From an uncultured Ruminiclostridium sp. (lineage in GTDB: Bacteria; Bacillota; Clostridia; Oscillospirales; Ruminococcaceae): a stretch of DNA of 64,000 bases. The stretch lies in NCBI GenBank assembly GCA_949878745.1, contig CATLBH010000002.1, positions 62,001-126,000 of the forward strand. The letters run 5' to 3'. The notes under the pieces are model-generated. The model worked only from the letters and a program-made list of their open reading frames with translations, made no database searches and was not told the origin of the DNA. Below, piece by piece: positions 1,718-60,752 of the stretch. Within the stretch, counting starts at the first letter, position 1, and every line of letters begins with the position of its first letter. Position numbers and translations under genes: made by a program.

Positions 1718-3562
1718 TTAAACTAAAATTTCCGGAGTTCCGGGAGGAATGTCCAGATAATCCTTGGGGTTCACATATTTACCGTTCACTTGAATGGTAA
1801 AGTGAACGTGAGTACCCGAGGATTTTCCCGTAGAGCCCGCGCCCGCTATACATTCGCCTTGAGCCACCCTTTGACCTTCGGTAACGTATAAAACGGAATT
1901 GTGAGCGTATGTACTTGTAACGCCCAGCTCCTCGTGATAAATCTCGATGTAATAGCCCAATCCGCGCGAGTACCCCGCGAAGGTCACTACTCCCGCCGCG
2001 CCCACATAAACGGGCTGACCGTAATAAAGCCCGGCGATATCTATTCCGTTATGTCCGTCATATCCTCCGTCCCACTGAGACCATTGACTTATATGACCGC
2101 CGTCCACCGGCCACAAAAATTTTCCTATCGCCGCGGTTCCCGCCTTATAAGAGCCTTCGGGAGCCGGCTTTGAACCTATAGCTACAATCTCGGTAACGGG
2201 AGCCACAAGCTGATTTATATTGGTAATGGTTCTGTGCGTTTCGATCCCGTTCACATAAGAAATATCGGCGGTAACCTCATTGACGCCGTATTCGCCGTCC
2301 TGTATCCTTCTCGAAGAGCCCTCAAAAATATCGTTATCCTGATAGGTATCGGTCATATAGGGAACGTTATCCACCACATAAACCTCGGTTCTTGTGACGC
2401 TTACCGGCAAAAACGGTATTTCGTTTCCGATCTTTATTTGATCACCGCCGTGAAACTCTGATTCGCCGAAACCCGGATTCAAAAGCTCCAGCTGAGAAAG
2501 AGAAAGATTCACCTTGTCCGAAATAAGCGAAGAGCTATCGCCCTCCTCCGCCGTGTAATACGAAGGCTCCTTACGGATACTTGTTATCAGGTCGAGAAGC
2601 CAGTCTTCGTCTATGATACTGTCGGAAAGGTATAAGCCCGCCTCGTCATATCTTATATCGTCCACAAAGGCCACCAGATCCGTGGAATATTCTTTTTGGT
2701 AATCGGCAAGCAGCTTATCGAGAGTATTTTTCACATTTGAAAAATCCATTAAAGCGCCGTAAAATACGTCATTGATAAAAAAACCGTAGCCGTATTCAAG
2801 ACTTACTCCCGAATTTTGCAGCACCAGGTCGGCTATCTGATATTTTGTAAGAGTTTCCGTATAGCCTATCTGCTCCACGGAATAAGACGGAACGGCTTCG
2901 ATTTCAAGGTCGCTGCCCAGATAATTTACTCTGTCCTGAAGGACTTCTTTCGCGTCAAGAAAAACCTGTTCACTTTCTATATAACCCAAAAATTTTCCGT
3001 TAACATTCAACTTTACCGCATAATTCAGCGAATTGGCGTATGTTATAACGCTTAACAGGAAAAAAACGCTTAAAACAGGTATAGCGCAGTTAAAAAGCAT
3101 AACGGCCAGACCGCTTTTTCCGAATAAAAGCCTTCCGGTAAAAAAGACAGCCCCTTTTACGCCCAGTTTCCCGCCGTTTTTCTCCTTTTCTTTGCGCAAA
3201 GCTTTTTTATTTCCCTCATAATACCTTATAAACGTGTTTACCGGCCGTAGCAGGAACTGGACTGATTTTTTCAACGACAATATTATATAACGTCTGAACC
3301 TTCCCGTGTACCTCCAAAGAAATTTAGATATGTAAACGGCACCTTTTCCGACGTAAACAAAAAAGCCGCAAAAAACCTTGAATATAAACCAACCAAAAAA
3401 TGAGGTTTTTATGTAAACTTTGCCGAAAAGCCTCTTCATAATGTTATCTTCCGTTTTATTCTCCGTACGTTCATAATTGTTAAGATCCAAGTCCGTATTT
3501 GTCCGAGCCGACTCTTCTTTAATCAAGCCGTTCCCTTTCACTTCTTTTTTTGATTTTATCAT
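1718..3562 (-). CDS. Membrane-anchored M23 peptidase with LysM-like and G5 regions (copy 1)
   Basis: A 614-residue protein from ATG 3562 (AGGG ten bases upstream; 26 more codons are open upstream). A basic cytoplasmic N-terminus of roughly 150 residues is followed by one transmembrane segment (VMLFNCAIPVLSVFFLLSVI). Then come an extracellular region starting YAVKLNVNGKFLGYIES, a LysM-like stretch (EEGDSSSLISDKVNLSLSQL), a G5 region (VTRTEVYVVDNVPYMTDT onward) and a C-terminal M23 (LytM-type) domain. The M23 zinc and catalytic residues are visible: H-N-G-I-D, YAHNS and the H-x-H in THVHF. The family cleaves peptide cross-links in peptidoglycan, so this probably remodels the wall outside the membrane. 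A close paralogue is read in the opposite direction at 13348-15099. A strong terminator follows. Confidence 0.9.
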   Translation of the reverse strand: MIKSKKEVKGNGLIKEESARTNTDLDLNNYERTENKTEDNIMKRLFGKVYIKTSFFGWFIFKVFCGFFVYVGKGAVYISKFLWRYTGRFRRYIILSLKKSVQFLLRPVNTFIRYYEGNKKALRKEKEKNGGKLGVKGAVFFTGRLLFGKSGLAVMLFNCAIPVLSVFFLLSVITYANSLNYAVKLNVNGKFLGYIESEQVFLDAKEVLQDRVNYLGSDLEIEAVPSYSVEQIGYTETLTKYQIADLVLQNSGVSLEYGYGFFINDVFYGALMDFSNVKNTLDKLLADYQKEYSTDLVAFVDDIRYDEAGLYLSDSIIDEDWLLDLITSIRKEPSYYTAEEGDSSSLISDKVNLSLSQLELLNPGFGESEFHGGDQIKIGNEIPFLPVSVTRTEVYVVDNVPYMTDTYQDNDIFEGSSRRIQDGEYGVNEVTADISYVNGIETHRTITNINQLVAPVTEIVAIGSKPAPEGSYKAGTAAIGKFLWPVDGGHISQWSQWDGGYDGHNGIDIAGLYYGQPVYVGAAGVVTFAGYSRGLGYYIEIYHEELGVTSTYAHNSVLYVTEGQRVAQGECIAGAGSTGKSSGTHVHFTIQVNGKYVNPKDYLDIPPGTPEILV

Positions 3563-3678
3563 CGCTTTAAATCCCTGATAAATATTACAAATTGGTAACA
3601 AAACCATACATATATTAACATATTTCTCTTTTTTTTTCAAGTGTTTGGAAAAAATTAACGAAAAAAGTTTTAAAAACC

Positions 3679-3709
3679 AAAAAAGGACTGCCGCCCAACA
3701 ATCCTTTTT
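3679..3709 (-). terminator. Terminator of the ABC-F gene
   Basis: AAAAAAGGA (3679-3687) pairs with TCCTTTTT (3702-3709) around a GC-rich loop. On the minus strand the right arm runs into a T tract. It lies just past the ABC-F stop codon. Confidence 0.75.
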
Positions 3710-3717
3710 AAATATTA

Positions 3718-5331
3718 TTACAAAACTATTTTACCCAAATTATGCTCCTTGCGCCACTGAATAAACTCCTCATATGTTCCCATACGGTCATAGCATCCGC
3801 TGTCGGTAAGCTCTATTATCCTGTTGGCAACCGTCTGAACTATTTCATGGTCGTGAGAGCAAAAAAGAACGTTGCCCTTAAACTCCGACAGGCCGTTGTT
3901 TACGGCGGTAATGCTTTCCAGGTCAAGATGGTTGGTGGGCTGATCCAGCATAAGCACATTGGATTTAAAGAGCATCATACGGCTGAACATGCACCTGACC
4001 TTTTCACCGCCCGAAAGGACGTTTACGGGCTTGAACACATCGTCTCCGCTGAACAGCATTCTGCCCAGAAATCCTCGGAGATAGGTTTCGGTGGTGTCCT
4101 CGCTGTACTGTCTGATCCAATCCAGTATAGTAAGATCGCAGCCGTTGAAAAAGTGATCCGAATCCACGGGGAAATAGCTGAGCGAAGTGGTGCTTCCCCA
4201 TTTAAACGAGCCCTCGTCAGGCTCAAGCTCTCCCGCCAGTATTTTGAACAGCGCGGTAATCGCCATTTCGCTTTCCGCCAAAAAGGCGACCTTATCGGTT
4301 CGGCCCAACGTAAAGGAAACGTTGTTAAGTAGCTTGACGCCGTCGACGGTCTTTGAAAGTCCTTCCACCTGAAGCACGTCCTTGCCTACCTCCCTGTCGG
4401 GCTCAAAGCTTATAAAAGGGTACCGGCGGCTTGAAGCGGGCATTTCCTCGACGGTCAGCTTATCCAGCAGCTTTCTTCTCGAGGTGGCCTGTTTCGATTT
4501 TGACTTGTTGGCGGAAAAGCGCTGAATAAAGCTTTGAAGTTCCTTTATCTTTTCTTCCGTCTTCTTGTTCTGCTGCTTTATCATTCTTTGTATCAGCTGG
4601 CTTGATTCGTACCAGAATTCATAGTTACCCACATACATTTTTATTTTGTTATAGTCTATGTCCACAATATGAGTACATACGTTATTCAGGAAGTGACGGT
4701 CATGGGATACCACTATTACCGTACCGAAATATTCCGCGAGGAAATCCTCCAGCCACGCGATAGCGTCAATGTCCAGATGGTTGGTAGGCTCGTCCATAAG
4801 GATTATATCGGGGCTTCCGAAAAGGCACTGGGCCAAAAGCACCTTTACCTTGTCGTTTCCCGAAAGTCCGCTCATTTGTGAAAACATAATATCCTCTGAC
4901 AAGCCCAGACCCTGTATAAGCTTTGAAGCGTCGCTTTCCGCCTCCCAGCCGTTAAGCTCGGCAAATTCGCCTTCCAGAACGGAGGCTCTTTCGCCGTCCT
5001 CGTCGGAAAAGTTTTCCTTGGCGTAAAGCGCGTCCTTTTCCTTCATTATGTCATAAAGACGCTTATTGCCCATAATAACGGTATCTTGAACGGTATACTC
5101 GTCAAAGGCGAAATGATCCTGTCTTAATACGGACATACGGAGATTCTTGGGGATAGTCACCTCGCCGGAGGTGGGTTCAAGCTCTCCGTTGAGTATTTTT
5201 AAAAAAGTGGATTTGCCCGCTCCGTTGGCGCCTATTACTCCGTAGCAGTTACCCGCGGTAAAAAGCAGGTCGACATCCTTAAAAAGCGTGGCGCCGCCGA
5301 ATTGCAGACTTACGTTGGAAACGGTTATCAT
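3718..5331 (-). CDS. ABC-F family ATPase (YkpA/YbiT type) with degenerate second site
   Basis: A 537-residue soluble tandem ABC protein from ATG 5331, with no membrane segments. Domain 1 has Walker A GANGAGKST (about 34-42), signature LSGND instead of LSGGE, Walker B with DEPTNHLD and the switch histidine SHDRHF. A basic linker (KQQNKKTEEKIKELQ, SANKSKSKQATSRRK) is typical of ABC-F proteins that bind ribosomes at the E site. Domain 2 keeps LSGGEK and NHLD. Its P-loop, however, reads FLAESEMAITALFK with no glycine-rich loop or lysine, and its Walker B reads LDQPTN with Gln for the catalytic Glu. I expect only one composite site to hydrolyse ATP. Relatives act in translation regulation or antibiotic resistance; no resistance role can be claimed. 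It is monocistronic, with its own consensus promoter and terminator. Confidence 0.9.
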   Translation of the reverse strand: MITVSNVSLQFGGATLFKDVDLLFTAGNCYGVIGANGAGKSTFLKILNGELEPTSGEVTIPKNLRMSVLRQDHFAFDEYTVQDTVIMGNKRLYDIMKEKDALYAKENFSDEDGERASVLEGEFAELNGWEAESDASKLIQGLGLSEDIMFSQMSGLSGNDKVKVLLAQCLFGSPDIILMDEPTNHLDIDAIAWLEDFLAEYFGTVIVVSHDRHFLNNVCTHIVDIDYNKIKMYVGNYEFWYESSQLIQRMIKQQNKKTEEKIKELQSFIQRFSANKSKSKQATSRRKLLDKLTVEEMPASSRRYPFISFEPDREVGKDVLQVEGLSKTVDGVKLLNNVSFTLGRTDKVAFLAESEMAITALFKILAGELEPDEGSFKWGSTTSLSYFPVDSDHFFNGCDLTILDWIRQYSEDTTETYLRGFLGRMLFSGDDVFKPVNVLSGGEKVRCMFSRMMLFKSNVLMLDQPTNHLDLESITAVNNGLSEFKGNVLFCSHDHEIVQTVANRIIELTDSGCYDRMGTYEEFIQWRKEHNLGKIVL

Positions 5332-52933: not shown

Positions 52934-53704
52934 ATGTATTATAATAAAGTAGAAATAAGCGGAGTAAACACAGCAAAGCTTAAGGTACTTAAGGAAAGCG
53001 AAAAGATCGAGCTGCTTAAAAAAATAAAGGACGGGGATATGAAAGCCAGAGAGGAGCTTATCAACGGCAATCTTCGCCTTGTGCTGAGCGTTATACAGCG
53101 CTTTACTGGAAGGGGTGAAAATCCCGATGATCTGTTTCAGGTGGGGGTAATCGGCCTGATAAAAGCGATAGATAATTTTGATCTTTCCCTTAACGTAAGA
53201 TTCAGCACCTACGCGGTGCCTATGATAATAGGCGAGATACGTAGATTTCTACGCGATAACAGCTCCATCAGAATCTCCCGCTCGATGCGCGACCTTGCCT
53301 ATAAGGCTATGCAGGCAAAGGAAAAGCTCACCAACGAGGGCTCGGCCGAACCAACGATCGAGGAAATCGCCAACGAAATAAACGCCAAGCGCCAGGACGT
53401 GGTTATTGCCCTCGAAGCCATAAGCGATCCCGTATCTCTTTACGATCCCGTATTTTCCGAATCCGGAGATACGGTATATGTTATGGATCAGGTGGGCGAC
53501 AAAAACAACGATATAAACTGGCTTAACGAAATCGCTCTCAAAGACGCCATTGTTAACTTAGGACAGCGGGAAAAGAAAATACTTAACCTGAGATTTTTTC
53601 AGGGTAAAACCCAGGTTGAGGTGGCGAATGAGATAGGCATAAGTCAGGCGCAGGTTTCAAGGCTCGAAAAGGGTGCGCTTAACAAAATAAAAGGGCAAAT
53701 ATAG
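52934..53704 (+). CDS. sigG: Sporulation sigma factor sigma-G
   Basis: A 256-residue forespore sigma factor. N-terminal MYYNKVEISGVNTAKLKVL is a typical sigma-G start with no pro-sequence. Regions 2 (REELINGNLRLVLSVIQRF, DDLFQVGVIGLIKAIDNFD, FSTYAVPMIIGEIRRFLRD), 3 (EPTIEEIANEINAKRQDVV) and 4 (TQVEVANEIGISQAQVSRLE) are intact. It follows sigE by 137 bases with its own promoter, the usual order spoIIGA-sigE-sigG. It directs late forespore genes. Confidence 0.95.
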   Translation: MYYNKVEISGVNTAKLKVLKESEKIELLKKIKDGDMKAREELINGNLRLVLSVIQRFTGRGENPDDLFQVGVIGLIKAIDNFDLSLNVRFSTYAVPMIIGEIRRFLRDNSSIRISRSMRDLAYKAMQAKEKLTNEGSAEPTIEEIANEINAKRQDVVIALEAISDPVSLYDPVFSESGDTVYVMDQVGDKNNDINWLNEIALKDAIVNLGQREKKILNLRFFQGKTQVEVANEIGISQAQVSRLEKGALNKIKGQI

Positions 53705-53712
53705 GTTGCCTA

Positions 53713-53741
53713 TAGACATTTAATGAAAAATGTGTTAAAAT
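53713..53741 (+). promoter_or_regulatory. Promoter of tyrA
   Basis: TAGACA (53713-53718), 17 bases, TAAAAT (53736-53741) with an extended TGT. The start point would fall inside the left arm of the sigG terminator. Confidence 0.72.
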
Positions 53742-53772
53742 AACAGAAGTGATTGTACTTCTGTTATTTTTT
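53742..53772 (+). terminator. Terminator of sigG
   Basis: AACAGAAGT (53742-53750) pairs perfectly with ACTTCTGTT (53757-53765) and is followed by ATTTTTTT. It directly abuts the tyrA -10 element. Confidence 0.9.
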
Positions 53773-53795
53773 TACAAAAGGAAGGGATAGCATAA

Positions 53796-54647
53796 ATGAA
53801 TATTGCTGTAATCGGCTTGGGTCTTATAGGCGGAAGCCTTTGCAAAAGTCTTAAAAAGCACACTTTTCATCACATAATGGGCATAGACCGCGATAAGGAG
53901 ACTATAAAAAAAGCCTTGGAGCAGAACGCCATAGACGAGGAAATTACGGCCGATAAGCTTAAAGAAGCGAACCTCAGCATTATCTGTCTGTATCCTGAAA
54001 CCATATGCGAATTCGTACGGGAAAACGCCGACAATTTCAAAAAAGGGAGCATTGTAACGGATACCTGCGGAGTCAAAAAGGCGATCGTGGACGCATGTAC
54101 GCCTGTTCTTGAGGAAAAAGGCGTAATGTTTGTGGGAACCCACCCCATGGCGGGCAGAGAGTTCAGCGGCTATGACTATTCCACCGACAGTCTTTTTGAC
54201 AACGCAAGCTTTATCATCACCCCCGGCGATAGTACTCCCCAGATCGCCGTAGACCTGCTTTCCACTTTAGCGGGCAGCATAGGCTTCAGCAAGGCCGTGA
54301 TAGCCTCTCCCGAAAGGCATGATCAAATAATAGCCTACACCTCCCAGCTCGCCCACGTGGTTTCCAACGCCTATGTGAAAAGCCCCTCGGTCAATGATTT
54401 CAACGGGTTTTCTGCGGGAAGCTTTATGGATCTTACAAGAGTGGCCAAACTTAACGAGGATATGTGGACAAGCCTGTTTATGTGCAACAAGGAATTTCTT
54501 CTGAACGAGCTGAATCAGATAATAAGAAGCATTACCGAATACCGCGACGCTATCGCCGGCGACAACCGCGAGCTTCTGCGAAGTCTTCTCCGCGACGGAA
54601 GGATACTTAAAGAAAATTGCACCGAAAAATACTCAAAAAATTTATAA
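53796..54647 (+). CDS. tyrA: Prephenate dehydrogenase
   Basis: A 283-residue NAD-dependent enzyme converting prephenate to 4-hydroxyphenylpyruvate in tyrosine synthesis. The Rossmann GLGLIGGSL (7-15) with Asp after strand 2 (MGIDRDKE), the THPMAGRE motif with the catalytic histidine near 119 and the YTSQLAHVVSNAY helix are present. No ACT domain is attached, so tyrosine feedback through an ACT domain is absent. It is followed by an S-component-like membrane gene, not by other aromatic genes. Confidence 0.93.
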   Translation: MNIAVIGLGLIGGSLCKSLKKHTFHHIMGIDRDKETIKKALEQNAIDEEITADKLKEANLSIICLYPETICEFVRENADNFKKGSIVTDTCGVKKAIVDACTPVLEEKGVMFVGTHPMAGREFSGYDYSTDSLFDNASFIITPGDSTPQIAVDLLSTLAGSIGFSKAVIASPERHDQIIAYTSQLAHVVSNAYVKSPSVNDFNGFSAGSFMDLTRVAKLNEDMWTSLFMCNKEFLLNELNQIIRSITEYRDAIAGDNRELLRSLLRDGRILKENCTEKYSKNL

Positions 54648-54679
54648 GCCACCGTCGAAGAAAGGAACGCTGAAAAAAT

Positions 54680-55237
54680 ATGTCTGTACGAAGCGGAAAA
54701 AGCTTTAAAATTGCCTATTGCGGAATTATGACCGCTTTAAGCACTGTAACAATGCTGCTGGCTCTCATTCCGTCAATGACCTACGTCCTGCCTGCTTTTT
54801 CGGGAATATGCATTTGGACCGTATCGGATCAGATAAGCAGAAAATGGGGGCTGCTCTCCTATGCCGCGTCGGCGCTTTTGTGCTTTATGATAGTGCCCGA
54901 AATCGAAGCGGATCTTTACTACATTTTTTTCTTCGGATATTACCCTCTGATAAAGGAGCCGACGGAAAAAATAAAGCCCAAGCTTCTTTCCTATGCGATA
55001 AAATTTCTTATCTTCAACGCCGCCGTAGTAACGGCTTTCAAGATTGTTTCCCATATACTGAATCTTGAGCAGATACTGGAAGGTCTTGAAATGTTCGGGG
55101 AAATGGCTGTTTATGTGCTTTGGGGCGCGGCGAACATTGCTTTTTTGCTTTACGATCTCTGCCTTAATTATCTTTTTTACGGATTCAGAAAATGGATAAA
55201 GCCGAAAATCAATAAAAAGATCGGCGGGAAAGTCTGA
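54680..55237 (+). CDS. Small membrane protein, possibly an ECF S component
   Basis: A 185-residue protein with five predicted helices. The first (KIAYCGIMTALSTVTMLLAL) begins with A-x-x-G-x-M-x-A-L as in ECF substrate-binding (S) components, followed by IPSMTYVLPAFSGICIW. The last helices are short and the tail is basic. If it is an S component, it would draw on the EcfA1A2T module at 41959-44529. The S-component call is inference; no ligand motif is visible and no riboswitch lies upstream. It starts 32 bases after tyrA. Confidence 0.6.
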   Translation: MSVRSGKSFKIAYCGIMTALSTVTMLLALIPSMTYVLPAFSGICIWTVSDQISRKWGLLSYAASALLCFMIVPEIEADLYYIFFFGYYPLIKEPTEKIKPKLLSYAIKFLIFNAAVVTAFKIVSHILNLEQILEGLEMFGEMAVYVLWGAANIAFLLYDLCLNYLFYGFRKWIKPKINKKIGGKV

Positions 55238-55275
55238 ATTATCCGATAATGATACATAAAAATTTATACCGGCTC

Positions 55276-55304
55276 TTGCAAATTTTTTATATGTATGGTA
55301 TAAT
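55276..55304 (+). promoter_or_regulatory. Promoter of the ligase-like/argS operon
   Basis: TTGCAA (55276-55281), 17 bases, TATAAT (55299-55304), 46 bases before ATG 55350. Confidence 0.82.
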
Positions 55305-55349
55305 TTCCTAATAGTATGATGAAATAAATAAAGGTTAGGTAGCGAGCAA

Positions 55350-56420
55350 ATGGCAAAAACTAAAGTGGCTGTACTGTTCGGAGGACAGTCAAAGGATTAT
55401 TCGGTTTCTTTAAGATCGGCATATTCGGTGATAACGACATTATCCGGTGAAAATTACGACGTTATTCCCATTGGTATCACAAGAGTGGGACGATGGCTTT
55501 ATTATCCCGGAAATTACGAAGCAATAGCCGACGGGAGTTGGGAAAACGATTCGGACTGCTGCCCTGCCGTTATAAGTCCCGACGCGGTACACCACGGCAT
55601 AATAAAGCTTATTGACAGCTCCGTGATGGCGGTTCAGCGTGTGGACGTCATTTTTTCGGTAATTTACGGTAAATTCGGCGAATGCGGCCGAATACAGGGC
55701 TTGTGCAAATTAGCGGGTATCCCATTTCTGGGGAGCAACCCCGAAGCCTCGGCCTCCGCGGTGGATAAATCCATGACTCACCTACTGCTTGACGAAGCGG
55801 GAATAGAGACGGTAAAATATTTTTGCATGGAACGCAGCGATATGCCTTATATCGACGAAATAATAAATAAGCGCGAAAAAAAACTAAGCTATCCTTTAAG
55901 GGTAAAGGCTTCGAGCTGCAGCTCCTCTATCGGCTCAAACATAGCCTTCGACAAAAACGAGCTTAAATCCGCATTAAAAATCGCCTTCTCCCATCACCAT
56001 AAAGCGGTGGTGGAAAGCTTTATAACGGGAAGGAATCTTTGCTGCTGCGTATACGAAAAAGAGGGACTTATAACCGTTTCCGATATAGGCGAAACGGTTC
56101 CAGTGGAAAGTACCATCGACCGTCTTAACAATTATATCAGCAAAACTTCAAGATTTAAGGTACCGGCGGATATACCAGAAGAGATGACAGAAAAAATAAA
56201 AACCGCCGCTAAACGGGCTTTTAGGGTAATAGACTGTCAAGGCTTCGCGCTGATCGACTTTTTGCTTTCCACAGACAATAAGCTGTATGGAACAAAAGTG
56301 TCAACAGTACCCGGTTTTAACAGAGAAAGCGCTCTCACGTCGCTTTTATCGGCCGGAGGGCTTACTTACTCGGAAATACTCGAAATAATGTTAAATAACG
56401 CATTAGAGTCAAAAGCATAA
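55350..56420 (+). CDS. D-alanine--D-alanine ligase homologue, probable pseudoenzyme
   Basis: A 356-residue ATP-grasp protein alignable along its length to Ddl: KVAVLFGGQS at the start, GKFGE-x-G-x-IQG, GIPFLGSN, DKSMTHLLLDEAGI and a final STVPGF with the right spacing. Key catalytic positions are changed: the N-terminal E-H pair reads D16-Y17, the K-P-x-x-x-G-S-S loop reads K-A-S-S-C-S-S-S, the ID that should follow Arg follows L301 (A-L-I-D), and the N-E-V-N metal site reads T315-K316-V-S318. The frame is intact, so it is conserved but unlikely to make D-Ala-D-Ala. It may bind nucleotide or peptide in a regulatory role. First in an operon with DUF1934 and argS. Confidence 0.82.
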   Translation: MAKTKVAVLFGGQSKDYSVSLRSAYSVITTLSGENYDVIPIGITRVGRWLYYPGNYEAIADGSWENDSDCCPAVISPDAVHHGIIKLIDSSVMAVQRVDVIFSVIYGKFGECGRIQGLCKLAGIPFLGSNPEASASAVDKSMTHLLLDEAGIETVKYFCMERSDMPYIDEIINKREKKLSYPLRVKASSCSSSIGSNIAFDKNELKSALKIAFSHHHKAVVESFITGRNLCCCVYEKEGLITVSDIGETVPVESTIDRLNNYISKTSRFKVPADIPEEMTEKIKTAAKRAFRVIDCQGFALIDFLLSTDNKLYGTKVSTVPGFNRESALTSLLSAGGLTYSEILEIMLNNALESKA

Positions 56421-56446
56421 AAATATTAAACAGAATGGAGCGGGAA

Positions 56447-56887
56447 ATGAATAAAGATGTCCGTATAAAAATAAAGACGATACAGTCCGCCGACGAGGAC
56501 GACGGAGAAGTAACCGAACTTTTCACCTTCGGAAAACTCTCAAGGCTAAAGGACGCCGACGGATACAGAATAATTTATGACGAAACCGAGGTAATGGGAT
56601 TTGAAGGCTGCCGAGTCGCTTTGGACGTCACCGACAGCTTTGTGAAAATGTCAAGAACGGGAAAGGCCAATTCCACGTTGTTTATAGAAAAGGGAAAAAA
56701 ACACCACGGCCATTACGGAACCCCCTTCGGGGATTTTATGATAGGCATAAACACAGACGAGCTGAAAAACGAAATCGGAGACGCCGGCGGCGATTTGTAC
56801 ATGAAATATACAATAGACGTAAATTCGGACTTTTTGTCGGAAAACGAAATATTTGTAAATGTCGAGGAATGTAACGACAAAGCATAA
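56447..56887 (+). CDS. DUF1934 (YwiB-like) protein
   Basis: A 146-residue protein from ATG 56447, behind GGAG at six bases; ATG 56435 is in frame but has no site. It forms a calycin-like barrel: VRIKIKTIQSADEDDGE, FEGCRVALDVTDSFVKMSRTG, KHHGHYGTPFGDFMIGINTD with the family's H-Y-x-T-P-x-G pattern, and a last strand FLSENEIFVNVEE. YwiB family proteins often sit directly before argS in Firmicutes, as here (30 bases). Function unknown. Confidence 0.85.
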   Translation: MNKDVRIKIKTIQSADEDDGEVTELFTFGKLSRLKDADGYRIIYDETEVMGFEGCRVALDVTDSFVKMSRTGKANSTLFIEKGKKHHGHYGTPFGDFMIGINTDELKNEIGDAGGDLYMKYTIDVNSDFLSENEIFVNVEECNDKA

Positions 56888-56917
56888 AATATAAATTATA
56901 AGGAGACAGCCAAAACA

Positions 56918-58603
56918 ATGATAAACACCGTAGCCAACGCAAAAAACGACGTAAAAGAAATCGTGCTTAACGCATTGGGGCGGCTCGTGGCCGAAGGGAA
57001 GCTGCCGGCCGAGCCTTTGCCCGCCTTCGCGGTGGAAATTCCCAACGATAAGAGCCACGGGGACTTTTCCTGCAACGCCGCTCTGGTTTCCGCCAAGACG
57101 CTTAAGCAAAATCCCCGCAGTATCGCTTCAATGATAGTGGATAACGCGGTGCTTGAGGGCACCGTTTTTGAAAAAATCGAATTAGCGGACCCCGGCTTTC
57201 TGAATTTTTTTGTGAGCAGTGACTGGTTTTCCGGCACGGTAAACGCAGTGCTCAAAGAAAAAGAAAATTACGGAAAGACCGACGACGGAAAAGGAAAAAG
57301 AGTGCTTGTGGAATTCGTTTCCGCCAACCCCACCGGTCCCATGCACATCGGCAACGCGAGAGGCGGAGCCTTGGGGGACTGCCTCGCTTCCCTGCTCCAA
57401 TACGCGGGATACTATGTGGAGCGGGAATTTTATATAAACGACGCGGGAAATCAGATAAACAAATTCGCTTTAAGCCTTGACATACGCTATCGTCAGCATT
57501 TCGGAGACCCCGTGGAAATGCCGGAGGATTCCTACCACGGTCAGGATATTATCGACCACGCGGAAAATTTCGCAAAGGAATACGGCGACAAATACTTAAA
57601 GGCAAGCGAGGAAGAGCGCAGACAGGCGCTTGTGAACTACGCCCTCCCCATAAACATAAAGGGGCTGGAAGAGGATTTGTTAAAGTACAGGATAAAATAC
57701 GATACCTGGTTTAAGGAGAGCACTCTTCACAACGACGGCTCGGTGGCGGAGGTGATCGAGCTGCTTAAAGAAAAGGGCTACACATACGAACAGGACGGTG
57801 CGCTGTGGTTCAGATCTTCCGAGCTTGGGGACGACAAGGACAGAGTGCTTATAAGGGCAAACGGAGTTCCCACCTATTCGGTTCCCGATATAGCGTATCA
57901 TTACAACAAGCTTGTCAAAAGAGGCTTTGACACGGCCATTGACGTTCTGGGCGCGGATCATCACGGCTATGTTCCGAGAATGAGGGCGGCGCTTACCGCG
58001 CTGGGCGTGGATTCGGCGCGGCTTGACGTTGTGATTATGCAGATGGTGCGGCTTGTGAGAAACGGCGAAACGGTAAAGCTTTCAAAAAGATCCGGAAAGG
58101 CCATTACCCTTTCGACGCTGCTCGACGAAATACCCATGGACGCGGCAAGATTCTTCTTTAACCTTCGCGATCCCAACACTCATTTCGAGTTCGACCTTGA
58201 CCTTGCCATAGAGGAAAGCTCCAACAATCCCGTTTACTATGTCCAGTACGCTCACGCCAGAATATGCCGAATACTGGAAAAGCAGAGGGAGGAAGGAAAC
58301 GAGTGTAAATTTATTTCCGAAACAGAGCTGGTTTACTCCGAAAAAGCCGAAATAGAGCTTATAAGGCACTTAGCCGCTCTTCCCGATATTGTAAGCGAAG
58401 GCGCCAAGACATACAATCCATCGGTCATCACAAGATATTTGGTGGAGCTTGCGCAGCATTTCCATAAATTTTATGACGCATGTCCCATAAAAGGCGAGGA
58501 AGAGAGGGTGCTTCAGTCAAGACTTTCTCTTTGTTCCGCCGCGAAGATCGTGATAAAAAATTTGCTTGACCTGCTTAAAGTTGACGCTCCCGAAAAAATG
58601 TAA
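56918..58603 (+). CDS. argS: Arginyl-tRNA synthetase
   Basis: A 561-residue class I synthetase. N-terminal additional domain (VKEIVLNALGRLVAEGKLP), HIGH motif as HIGNARGG near 141-148, the SVPDIAYHYNKLVKRG region, KMSK-like KLSKRSGKAITL, and a C-terminal helical DALR anticodon domain (VYYVQYAHARICRI onward). It charges tRNA-Arg. Not located in the arg operon. No T-box leader is seen upstream. Confidence 0.95.
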   Translation: MINTVANAKNDVKEIVLNALGRLVAEGKLPAEPLPAFAVEIPNDKSHGDFSCNAALVSAKTLKQNPRSIASMIVDNAVLEGTVFEKIELADPGFLNFFVSSDWFSGTVNAVLKEKENYGKTDDGKGKRVLVEFVSANPTGPMHIGNARGGALGDCLASLLQYAGYYVEREFYINDAGNQINKFALSLDIRYRQHFGDPVEMPEDSYHGQDIIDHAENFAKEYGDKYLKASEEERRQALVNYALPINIKGLEEDLLKYRIKYDTWFKESTLHNDGSVAEVIELLKEKGYTYEQDGALWFRSSELGDDKDRVLIRANGVPTYSVPDIAYHYNKLVKRGFDTAIDVLGADHHGYVPRMRAALTALGVDSARLDVVIMQMVRLVRNGETVKLSKRSGKAITLSTLLDEIPMDAARFFFNLRDPNTHFEFDLDLAIEESSNNPVYYVQYAHARICRILEKQREEGNECKFISETELVYSEKAEIELIRHLAALPDIVSEGAKTYNPSVITRYLVELAQHFHKFYDACPIKGEEERVLQSRLSLCSAAKIVIKNLLDLLKVDAPEKM

Positions 58604-58626
58604 AAGAGTATGAAAGGAATAATTAA

Positions 58627-59805
58627 ATGAATACGGACGACGGTCATAACCGATGTTACATTTTTACAGCCTCCGAAAACCTGTTTCCGGAGCTTTTCGA
58701 TAAATCCTCCAATAAAATATGCCCGGATATTCCGGAAAATAAGGTATATTTTGACATAAAAACGGGCAATATTGATTATGCGGATATCTTCGGACTTCCT
58801 ACCGAAAGGCTTAACGTTTTTATGCTTAAGGAATCAAAAACGGATACGGGAAATTTAAGCTGCGGTGAGATAAACAAAAAGATCGCCGAAGCCGTAAAAC
58901 ATTCCGAAGCGGCAAGCGGAAAAAAAATCGCTGGAGTAATAGGCGCCAGCGGTGTTTATATCGATCCGTTTTCCGAAATAAGCTTTACCGAGCTTATAAC
59001 CTCCTATGACGAACAGATTCACGCTTTGGAAAATTTTGTGGATTTGTATATCATAAAAGATATATACTCAATGTCGGATATGCGAGCCGCGCTGCTTTCC
59101 TGCAAAAAGACCGAAAAGTCGGTTTTCGTGACGATTGCCCCAAAGGAAGAGGATTCCGGCGAAACGGGGGGAATTTCCGCTCTGGGGGGACTGGTAACGG
59201 CTCAGGAAATGGGAGCGGACGCTTTCGGAATATACTTCCGCGAATCGAAAAAATATAATGAAGCGGCGAAGGAATTGATTCGCTACGCAAAAATACCGCT
59301 GATCGCGGATCTGAGATGTGAAAGCGATGAGATTCCCGTTTTTTCGGGGGCATATTACGCAGAATATTCCCTAACCGATGATATAAACATAAGGCTTCGG
59401 GAAAAAAGCGCCGACGGCTGGTCAGCTTCGGCTTCGGAGATAACGCGTAACGACGATTTCTTTGTTTTCGCCTATTACGCGGATACTTTTTTTCTCGAAG
59501 CCGACACGACCGAAATTTCGGAGCCCATACGGTGCCTTCCCGATATGGAAGAAATAATATCGGATATATGCAAAACCTCCTGTGACATACTTCGGGTTGA
59601 AATAAACACCAACGACGACGCTATAGACTTTGCGCGCAACGCCCATATGTCCTCTCTCCCCGTTATGTTTCTGTCAGAAGACCCTCTCGCGCTGAAAATG
59701 GCGCTTATGCTTTATCAGGGCATTGCCTTAATTGACAGTGACACACTGATTCCAAAGGAAGAGCTTGAGGAAATATGCGGAAAATACGGCGCCGTGGTTT
59801 ATTAG
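58627..59805 (+). CDS. Methionine-synthase-like protein lacking the zinc cysteines
   Basis: A 392-residue soluble protein. The first 250 residues recall the homocysteine methyltransferase barrel: KKIAGVIGASGVYIDPFSEI, SFTELITSYDEQIHALENFVD, a second-strand LYIIKDIYSMSDMRAALLS, SVFVTIAPKEEDSGETGGIS, and GLVTAQEMGADAFGIYF where the family has G-x-N-C. The rest resembles the pterin-domain end (VEINTNDDAIDFARN, ALKMALMLYQGIALIDSD, EEICGKYGAVVY). The GGCC and G-x-N-C cysteines needed for zinc and homocysteine activation are missing. It is probably not an active methyltransferase. It is 23 bases after argS. Confidence 0.55.
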   Translation: MNTDDGHNRCYIFTASENLFPELFDKSSNKICPDIPENKVYFDIKTGNIDYADIFGLPTERLNVFMLKESKTDTGNLSCGEINKKIAEAVKHSEAASGKKIAGVIGASGVYIDPFSEISFTELITSYDEQIHALENFVDLYIIKDIYSMSDMRAALLSCKKTEKSVFVTIAPKEEDSGETGGISALGGLVTAQEMGADAFGIYFRESKKYNEAAKELIRYAKIPLIADLRCESDEIPVFSGAYYAEYSLTDDINIRLREKSADGWSASASEITRNDDFFVFAYYADTFFLEADTTEISEPIRCLPDMEEIISDICKTSCDILRVEINTNDDAIDFARNAHMSSLPVMFLSEDPLALKMALMLYQGIALIDSDTLIPKEELEEICGKYGAVVY

Positions 59806-59831
59806 ATATGCAATGAAAGGACATACAACAA

Positions 59832-60383
59832 ATGCATCTTGAAGAAAAAACACTGGAAAGCTGTCTTGTATATGACGGAAAAATTGTAAAGCTTTACAGA
59901 GATAAAGCGCTTCTGGAAAATAACAGCGAAGTGATACGCGAGGTAATAAAACACCCTGGCGGAGTCTGCGTAGTTCCCCTCACCGACAAAAACGAGGTAA
60001 TAATGGTGACTCAGCTGAGATATCCTCATCATAAGGTTCTTACGGAAATCCCCGCGGGAAAGCTTGAATGGGGGGAGGATCATTTCGAGTGCGGAAAACG
60101 CGAGCTAAAGGAGGAGACGGGCTGTACCGCCGAAAAATACGACTATCTCGGCTGCCTCCTGCCTACCCCCGCTTACGACACGGAGGTCATTCATATGTAC
60201 CTTGCCCGGGAGCTTTCCCAGGCAGAGCAAAAGCTTGACGAGGACGAATTTCTTGATGTAAAGAAAATACCCTTTGAAAAGGCTGTGGAAATGGTAATGA
60301 ACGGCGAAATCACCGACGCCAAAACACAGCTCGCGCTTCTTAAAACTAAGCTCCTTCTTGAACGTGAGAACTTGACGAAATAA
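59832..60383 (+). CDS. NUDIX hydrolase, ADP-ribose pyrophosphatase type
   Basis: A 183-residue hydrolase. The NUDIX box is GKLEWGEDHFECGKRELKEE extended by TGC (G-x5-E-x7-REL-x-EE-x-G), preceded by VIMVTQLRYPHHKVLTEIPA, the pattern of ADP-ribose pyrophosphatases. It splits ADP-ribose to AMP and ribose 5-phosphate. Given that NUDIX enzymes of this class clear ADP-ribose, a link to the ADP-ribosyltransferase 40 kb away is conceivable but not supported by position. Its 3' end overlaps spoVG on the other strand by 38 bases. Confidence 0.9.
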   Translation: MHLEEKTLESCLVYDGKIVKLYRDKALLENNSEVIREVIKHPGGVCVVPLTDKNEVIMVTQLRYPHHKVLTEIPAGKLEWGEDHFECGKRELKEETGCTAEKYDYLGCLLPTPAYDTEVIHMYLARELSQAEQKLDEDEFLDVKKIPFEKAVEMVMNGEITDAKTQLALLKTKLLLERENLTK

Positions 60384-60630
60384 AGCTGTTGTATACCGAC
60401 AGTATCTCCTGTTCAAGCTCCTCGCGTGCCTCCGGACTTATGGGGTGAACTATATCCCTGAAATTTCCGGCATCGTCCCTTCTGCTGGGCATTGCCACAA
60501 ACAGCCGCTCGTCGCCCTGTATTATTTTGATATCGTGTATGGCAAGGGAGTTGTCCACCGTTAAGGAGACAACGGCACGAAGCCTTGCTTCATTCATGGT
60601 TTTCCTGATTCTGACATCGCTGATATTCAT
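60346..60630 (-). CDS. spoVG: Septation/sporulation regulator SpoVG
   Basis: A 94-residue protein with the SpoVG fold: MNISDVRIRKTMNEARLRAV, VSLTVDNSLAIHDIKIIQGD, LFVAMPSRRDDAGNFRDI-V-H-P-I-S. It binds nucleic acid and acts in septation, capsule and sporulation control. RBS AGGAAAGG. The C-terminus is longer than the Bacillus protein by a few residues. The stop lies inside the NUDIX gene on the opposite strand. Confidence 0.95.
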   Translation of the reverse strand: MNISDVRIRKTMNEARLRAVVSLTVDNSLAIHDIKIIQGDERLFVAMPSRRDDAGNFRDIVHPISPEAREELEQEILSVYNSFISSSSHVQEGA

Positions 60631-60752
60631 TTTTTTGCGTTCCTTTCCTAAATGTGAATGTAAGAATAGTTTTCGCGCGGCGGACGGAAATATTCATAAA
60701 ACAAATACGGCTTTGCTTCATAATCTATATTACCTTTTTGAAAGGAAAAGAT

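Follow-up and report, generated by a model that had tools for sequence, protein, structure and literature searches.

The closest described relatives of the protein studied here are the VanG-type and DdlA-type D-Ala-D-Ala ligases (models NF000091 and NF002528; structure 4fu0), whose two-domain architecture it shares over its full length. It differs from them in that the catalytic acid, a metal ligand, the arginine and the glycine of the serine loop are all replaced. Within the same bacterial family the ddl-murI-DUF1934-argS locus carries an intact Ddl, and our gene lies at that same locus. The identity of our protein to 96 intact copies from the family ranges from 32% to 42%, with a median of 37%. 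The intact locus ligases have all 11 catalytic positions and murI adjoins most of them, whereas murI is absent from the locus described here. Among ATP-grasp-type proteins, TTLL12 is likewise a conserved protein of ligase fold without the expected activity, as described in an excerpt of PMC3520985. TTLL12 comes from eukaryotes and carries an additional, SET-like domain (PMC3520985, same excerpt), whereas our protein has no added domain and its inactivation is recurrent in several genera. Among the titles and opening lines of abstracts listed in searches of open-licence PMC papers, none describes such a family of Ddl pseudoenzymes.

A ligase homologue with a degenerate active site

The sequence analysed is a stretch of 64,000 nucleotides, referred to as the window. 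It contains an open reading frame of 356 amino acids with no internal stop, in which both Ddl Pfam domains score above cut-off (PF01820 at residues 5-129 and PF07478 at 146-348). The matches span nearly complete N- and C-terminal domains of Ddl. The best structure match in a phmmer search is 4fu0, aligned to residues 3-349 (E 8.6e-62). The full-length alignment to Ddl and the uninterrupted frame of the original prediction both therefore hold. With 270.8 bits it exceeds the 262-bit threshold of NF002528, 'D-alanine--D-alanine ligase', so that an annotation pipeline would give it this name; it falls short of the threshold of the VanG model NF000091 (291.4 against 495 bits). The features of the locus are as follows, all on the + strand.

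55276..55304, +, promoter-like site TTGCAA-17-TATAAT (scan of sequence)
55350..56420, +, pseudo-Ddl, a catalytically degenerate Ddl homologue of 356 aa (Pfam domains and residue alignment)
55395..55400, +, D16-Y17 in place of E15-H; D fixed in 37/37 copies of the genus
55455..55634, +, codons 36-95, conservation equal to or above that of intact Ddls at the same ArgS divergence (identity comparison)
55665..55667, +, Y106 in place of H63 (residue alignment)
55908..55922, +, ATP (serine) loop, with P replaced by A187 and G149 by S191; S191 fixed in 37/37 copies of the genus
56034..56036, +, N229 in place of E187 (residue alignment)
56130..56132, +, N261 in place of K215, omega loop (residue alignment)
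56250..56252, +, L301 in place of R255 (residue alignment)
56292..56303, +, metal/substrate motif N-E-V-N replaced by T315-K-V-S318 (residue alignment)
56435..56887, +, DUF1934 protein, the next gene (Pfam)
56918..58603, +, argS (arginyl-tRNA synthetase), as named in the original prediction; species-tree and clock control

The reference numbering (E15, H63, G149, R255 and so on) is that of E. coli DdlB. The equivalent residues, with their roles in binding ATP, metal and substrate, are named in an excerpt of PMC6899670. All the substitutions first reported are present (D16-Y17, A187, S191, L301 and T315-K-V-S318), and the damage is wider than was described, with H63, E187 and K215 replaced by Y106, N229 and N261. 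The set comprising the catalytic glutamate and arginine and the metal site (E15, R255, D257, E270 and N272) reads D, L, D, K, S, leaving D257 as its sole survivor. Within the ATP-loop set G149 has become S and E187 N, and K144 and S150 are retained. The residues retained in all are K97, K144, S150, E180, Y216 and D257. The catalytic motifs are not shifted, since the spacing from R255 to N272 equals that of the intact ligase of the same genome. An alignment shift or a sequencing error, the latter already judged unlikely in the original prediction, can be rejected because the motifs line up and identical losses recur in 37 copies. The protein is almost certainly not a working D-Ala-D-Ala ligase.

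Conservation of the inactive copy within the genus

The window comes from genome G000 (2.67 Mb in 108 contigs, 99% complete), of the genus that we denote g1. A copy at the corresponding locus was found in 32 of 35 genomes of this genus, and the three lacking it are 72-87% complete. The residue inspection covered neither G006, whose copy is in pieces, nor G025, whose copy is partial. Each of the 37 copies inspected has a different sequence, and in every one E15 (to D), G149 (to S) and E270 are lost (35/35 in a first set, to which two were added); N272 is lost in 36. The substitutions seen in the window thus recur in related genomes. Other positions are kept to various extents, with H63 retained in 29 of the 37, S281 in 31, K144 in 19, R255 in 17, E187 in nine and K215 in four. 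From the counts for K144 and E187 it is clear that the old nucleotide site varies within the genus.

The ratio dN/dS lies between 0.02 and 0.10 for the 14 of 16 g1 pairs with finite dS, close to the values for the neighbouring argS and DUF1934 genes; single values are rough because the other two pairs are saturated and several finite dS values exceed 1. Two pairs of inactive copies outside g1 gave 0.025 and 0.074, and three were saturated in dS. There is very little doubt that the protein, and not only the DNA, is under selection. Low dN/dS and full-length frames reject pseudogene decay in g1. A conserved pseudoenzyme is firmly established in this genus, and is likely in the other lineages with inactive copies. 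One record of this Clostridia genus (L038) is titled Bacteroides sp.; its title or bin is probably wrong.

The locus and its neighbours

The gene was originally described as heading an operon with a consensus promoter. The promoter-like site is present, and the motif ATG(G/A)TATAA does not vary among the ten upstream regions aligned, one from the window and nine from relatives. The match to TTGCAA-17-TATAAT is weak by itself, however, because the scan finds 10 such sites against 5.6 (sd 2.8) in shuffled sequences, and the term operon rests on adjacency and the promoter-like site. DUF1934 is the next gene in 32 of the 34 g1 loci besides the window, the other two sequences ending no more than 90 bases from the gene. 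A gap of 0.2-0.8 kb precedes it in L018, L021, L024 and L132. We considered DUF1934 as an obligate partner of the pseudoenzyme, and this is unsupported; DUF1934 is present in all eight genomes where no locus Ddl was found.

No Rfam match at the gathering threshold was obtained in positions 53600-60700 or in the whole window. Upstream of the gene, positions 54680-55237 encode a 185-aa protein that appears hydrophobic by eye and has no Pfam or NCBIfam match. A 392-aa protein is encoded between argS and a nudix-like gene (58627-59805); its residues 79-217 give a partial S-methyltransferase match (37 bits against a cut-off of 22), and it is seen in the eight loci of the genus with enough flank.

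Other ligases in the same genomes

Searching G000 with three Ddl-type queries revealed one other Ddl-type ligase, at G000:C42:3550-4590. It is VanG-like, intact at all 11 positions, and flanked by vanW-like and vanY-like genes, so this genome does carry a second Ddl-type gene with intact residues. In the stretch retrieved around it (L001, G000:C42) the vanW-like, VanG-like ligase and vanY-like genes are consecutive over 176-2833. The usual second ligase of the genus, which we call Ddl400, was not found in the G000 assembly, and there was no good match there to two neighbours of the G008 Ddl400 (one Mur-ligase-like, the other phosphoglycerate-mutase-like); an empty result of this kind, without a positive control, shows little. 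The absence of the Ddl400 block from G000 is likely to be an assembly gap.

Ddl400 is residue-intact in all 26 g1 genomes inspected (eight at first and 18 later). The first residue alignment had 13/13 VanG-like or order-level rows and 8/8 Ddl400 rows intact. G010 has no Ddl400-like match, and its sequence L130 encodes at 2247-4544 a 765-aa protein of two Ddl units in tandem, with E270 changed to D. Outside g1, another ligase is residue-intact in each of the 10 genomes inspected out of 13 with an inactive locus copy, and the remaining three (G441, G472 and G557) have Ddl400 matches. The kind of ligase presumed to be active varies. It is Ddl400, the tandem Ddl in G010, a VanG-like ligase in genus g262 (residues intact in both G511 and G583), or another Ddl in g250 (intact in 2/2). 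Ddl400 is scattered across 11 of 125 genera sampled. It often lies just after a Mur-ligase-like gene (L049 1243-4168 and other Ddl400 loci), which in L049, the one case checked with Pfam, encodes 571 aa with an apparently hydrophobic N-terminal part.

Probable repeated inactivation across the family

We classed a locus copy as dead if at least two of the 11 catalytic positions are changed, and judged membership of the locus from the neighbours in the fetched stretch. Outside g1 we inspected 121 genomes, a non-random set chosen by score or for a second ligase; they came mostly from the best listed matches, with a later batch partly chosen for carrying Ddl400. The locus copy is intact in 108 (96 of them from the window's family) and dead in 13, from eight genera: g30 (G232, G535), g192 (G541, G441), g216 (G465), g223 (G472, G557), g234 (G483), g237 (G486), g250 (G499, G577) and g262 (G511, G583). 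All 13 dead copies belong to the window's family and all have DUF1934 nearby. The stretch around the 108 intact copies contains murI in 96, DUF1934 in 98 and neither in four. Twelve loci from other families of the order all encode intact ligases, eight as ddl-murI-DUF1934, two as ddl-DUF1934 and two elsewhere. In one added batch of 126 rows, 113 had all 11 positions intact; the exceptions were three rows from g1, eight rows (seven genes) of dead copies elsewhere, L130, and L183, which is truncated. Applied to an order-wide sample, the dead-copy profile gives 494-580 bits in g1, with no score above 423 bits in other genera.

The substitutions vary by lineage. Of the 13 dead copies outside g1, nine keep E15, six G149, six E270, four R255, one K215 and none H63, and two have N at E15. 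Loss of activity is less sure in this group than in g1 because six keep E270, and less sure in G483, where exactly two positions (R255 and D257) are changed. The genus of G483, g234, contains both states: G483 has Ddl400 and the damaged copy, and G565 has an intact copy and no Ddl400. Several of the genera with dead copies are known from one or two genomes. The dead locus Ddl of G465 (L229) is 319 aa long, lacks the N-terminal start region and still lies beside murI; it is possibly decaying. Clean loss of ddl also appears possible, since G287, G450 and G302 have murI-DUF1934 with no ddl, and G502 has DUF1934 without either.

On an ArgS tree of 117 rows the dead label requires eight changes, a count that stayed the same when L153 and L159, which had absurd branches in the first tree, were dropped. 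A careful 47-row ArgS tree requires seven (bootstrap 7-8), four of them forced by supported branches, and a single origin was found in 0% of 200 bootstrap trees. Genera g250 and g216 are absent from the trees. Change counts alone cannot tell gain from loss, and we have taken the regaining of a full active site as unlikely. When the 18 of the 117 rows without Ddl400 status are left out, the remaining 99 comprise 70 intact without Ddl400, 26 dead with it, three dead without it (G010, G511 and G583) and none intact with it. Ddl400 is present in 16 of 197 genomes of the family, 11 with a dead locus copy, five with none found (one of these being 84% complete) and none with an intact copy. A tree-corrected test of dead copies against Ddl400 gave four supported pairs, of which three to four agree and none oppose, at p 0.125-0.25, too few for significance. 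Since in these rows 26 of 29 dead copies and no intact copy co-occur with Ddl400, and seven to eight changes are required, it appears that the old ligase was displaced, repeatedly inactivated and kept. The losses fixed in 37/37 copies, the low dN/dS, the repeated inactivation with retention and the second residue-intact ligase in the same genomes give good support to the original suggestion that a non-catalytic role is under selection.

Glutamate racemase

MurI was sought in all 13 genomes with dead copies outside g1 and in 13 of g1. No match above the family cut-off was found in 25 of the 26 (13/13 in g1 and 12/13 outside), although seven of the 12 negative genomes outside g1 have weak matches of 20-34 bits and the reach of the model is limited, as only 8/14 control genomes pass the cut-off. 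The same model finds MurI in G421, G519, G287, G450, G465, G509 and G434. Among genomes with an intact locus Ddl it finds none in G278, G565 and G501 and a weak match in G327, and it finds none in G502, which has no locus Ddl. G287 and G450 keep murI with ddl absent from the locus. Given these two genomes and the MurI-less genomes with an intact Ddl, loss of MurI seems to have preceded inactivation and to accompany retention of the dead copy. As an alternative source of D-Glu we looked for a class IV aminotransferase in G014 with a motif scan, and found no candidate in 800 kb, about 30% of the genome; there was one loose match, out of place, and the result is uninformative. An excerpt of PMC5885031 reports that in Chlamydia a DapF supplies D-Glu.

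Regional constraint

Pairwise identities were compared by region at equal divergence of ArgS; the pairs share ancestry and are not independent. For residues 36-95, pairs of dead g1 copies have identities of 0.59, 0.58 and 0.68 at ArgS identities of 0.5-0.6, 0.6-0.7 and 0.7-0.8, against 0.49, 0.53 and 0.69 for near intact copies and 0.40, 0.44 and 0.58 for all intact copies. The C-terminal residues 276-356 behave differently. Over the same bins dead g1 pairs have 0.35, 0.31 and 0.42 against 0.57, 0.57 and 0.69 for near intact copies, with 0.56 for all intact copies at ArgS identity 0.6-0.7. Residues 36-95 are thus as constrained as in the intact enzymes, and constraint on the C-terminal half is relaxed. 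For residues 1-35 of dead g1 copies, retention is no better than in near intact copies in the 0.6-0.7 bin (0.57 against 0.65), and residues 96-130 have 0.59 against 0.71 there. The other dead lineages have 0.47 and 0.53 for residues 36-95 but are relaxed in 1-35, with 0.42 and 0.43 (ArgS bins 0.5-0.6 and 0.6-0.7).

Calculated with whole-gene dS, dN/dS is higher in residues 236-356 than in 1-95 in eight of nine close g1 pairs. The same direction is seen, more mildly, in three of the four intact control pairs that were usable (ratio no greater than 1.8, against at least 2.4 in those g1 pairs). Local mutation rate or constraint on the mRNA may contribute to the low value in 1-95, because dS itself is lower there than in 236-356 in eight of the nine g1 pairs. 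Two intact L126 pairs with odd N-terminal dN, and one pair saturated in dS, were left out of the usable controls. L126 compared with L211 and L202, all intact Ddls, has dN of 0.47-0.54 in the first 95 residues at dS of about 0.6, and possibly has an exchanged N-domain.

Possible roles of the pseudoenzyme

We give about even weight to the proposal that this is the original housekeeping ddl of the lineage, which has stayed at the ancestral locus, become a conserved pseudoenzyme and been kept for a role based on the N-domain. The sequence of events would begin with loss of murI, followed by acquisition of Ddl400 as a second ligase, often beside a Mur-ligase-like gene. The old Ddl would then have lost its ATP and metal chemistry, and been kept for something that rests on the N-terminal domain, above all residues 36-95. 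Our opinion is equally divided on whether the function that was kept is older than the inactivation rather than newly arisen; the changes D16, S191 and H216 fixed in g1 are equally compatible with a new and a retained function. The likeliest role, though we put it below even odds, would be that of a non-catalytic adaptor or regulator in the supply of D-amino acids or cell-wall precursors, acting through contacts of its N-domain and not by pairing with one particular active ligase. A role in contacts or ligand binding by the N-domain is favored over a fixed mixed dimer because residues 36-95 are kept and the kind of active ligase changes. It is conceivable, though we would not give it even odds, that the housekeeping Ddl had a second, non-catalytic job in its N-domain, tied to life without glutamate racemase, which was kept alone after another ligase took over, independently in at least four and probably at least seven lineages.

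The original prediction had proposed a sensor of D-Ala or a peptidoglycan precursor. The pocket of the N-domain would then still bind D-Ala or a related precursor and report the level of cell-wall precursors. The acid at the position of E15 in all 37 g1 copies (always D) is consistent with this, as is the retention there of H63 and S281 in most. Yet retention of the D-Ala- and ATP-site residues is uneven. H63 is kept in none of the 13 other dead copies, including the two with N at E15, K215 survives in only 4/37 and 1/13 and R255 in 17/37 and 4/13 (g1 and other dead copies respectively), and the Pfam scan shows no output domain in the window protein. We consider a sensor unlikely.

It is rather improbable that the protein is a regulatory subunit that pairs with the active ligase in a mixed dimer and tunes its activity. 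Ddl structures share a dimer arrangement (an excerpt of PMC6899670), and in the genomes inspected dead copies co-occur with another ligase. That ligase differs in kind, however, between Ddl400, tandem Ddl, VanG-like and another Ddl. Four interface positions were mapped by hand. Copies in g1 retain G113 and D139 at 100% and 97%, but G117 and A135 at only 49% and 16%; the other dead lineages retain the latter two at 100% and 77%. A canonical mixed dimer is therefore weakened for g1, but not for the other dead lineages.

A new enzyme, or a new ligand, for which the fold has been reused with D16, S191 and H216 contributing to a new site, is improbable. These three residues depart from the intact consensus and are fixed in all 37 copies of g1, but they are shared by only one, two and none respectively of the 13 other dead copies, and the erosion within g1 of K144 (19/37) and E187 (9/37) does not favor such a site.

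A functionless, slowly decaying leftover, kept since its deletion would disturb transcription of DUF1934-argS, is most improbable. In its favor, the pseudo-Ddl comes directly behind the promoter-like site, its losses differ by lineage and L229 looks damaged. Against it stand the full-length frames and low dN/dS across g1 members with ArgS identity down to 50-60%, and the apparent possibility of clean loss, ddl being absent where murI-DUF1934 (G287, G450, G302) or DUF1934 (G502) is in place.

Implications

The pseudo-Ddl passes a curated model named D-alanine--D-alanine ligase, and this is a warning for annotation. Pseudoenzymes are well known, but the recurrent inactivation and preservation of a housekeeping peptidoglycan ligase in related genera constitutes a natural experiment. 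That an inactive Ddl is kept so recurrently suggests that Ddl can do something besides making D-Ala-D-Ala, and the congeners G483 and G565, together with the conserved segment of residues 36-95, make such a second job testable. If the N-domain does have a job of its own, these proteins would form a family of cell-wall pseudoenzymes that has arisen recurrently within one family of gut Clostridia.
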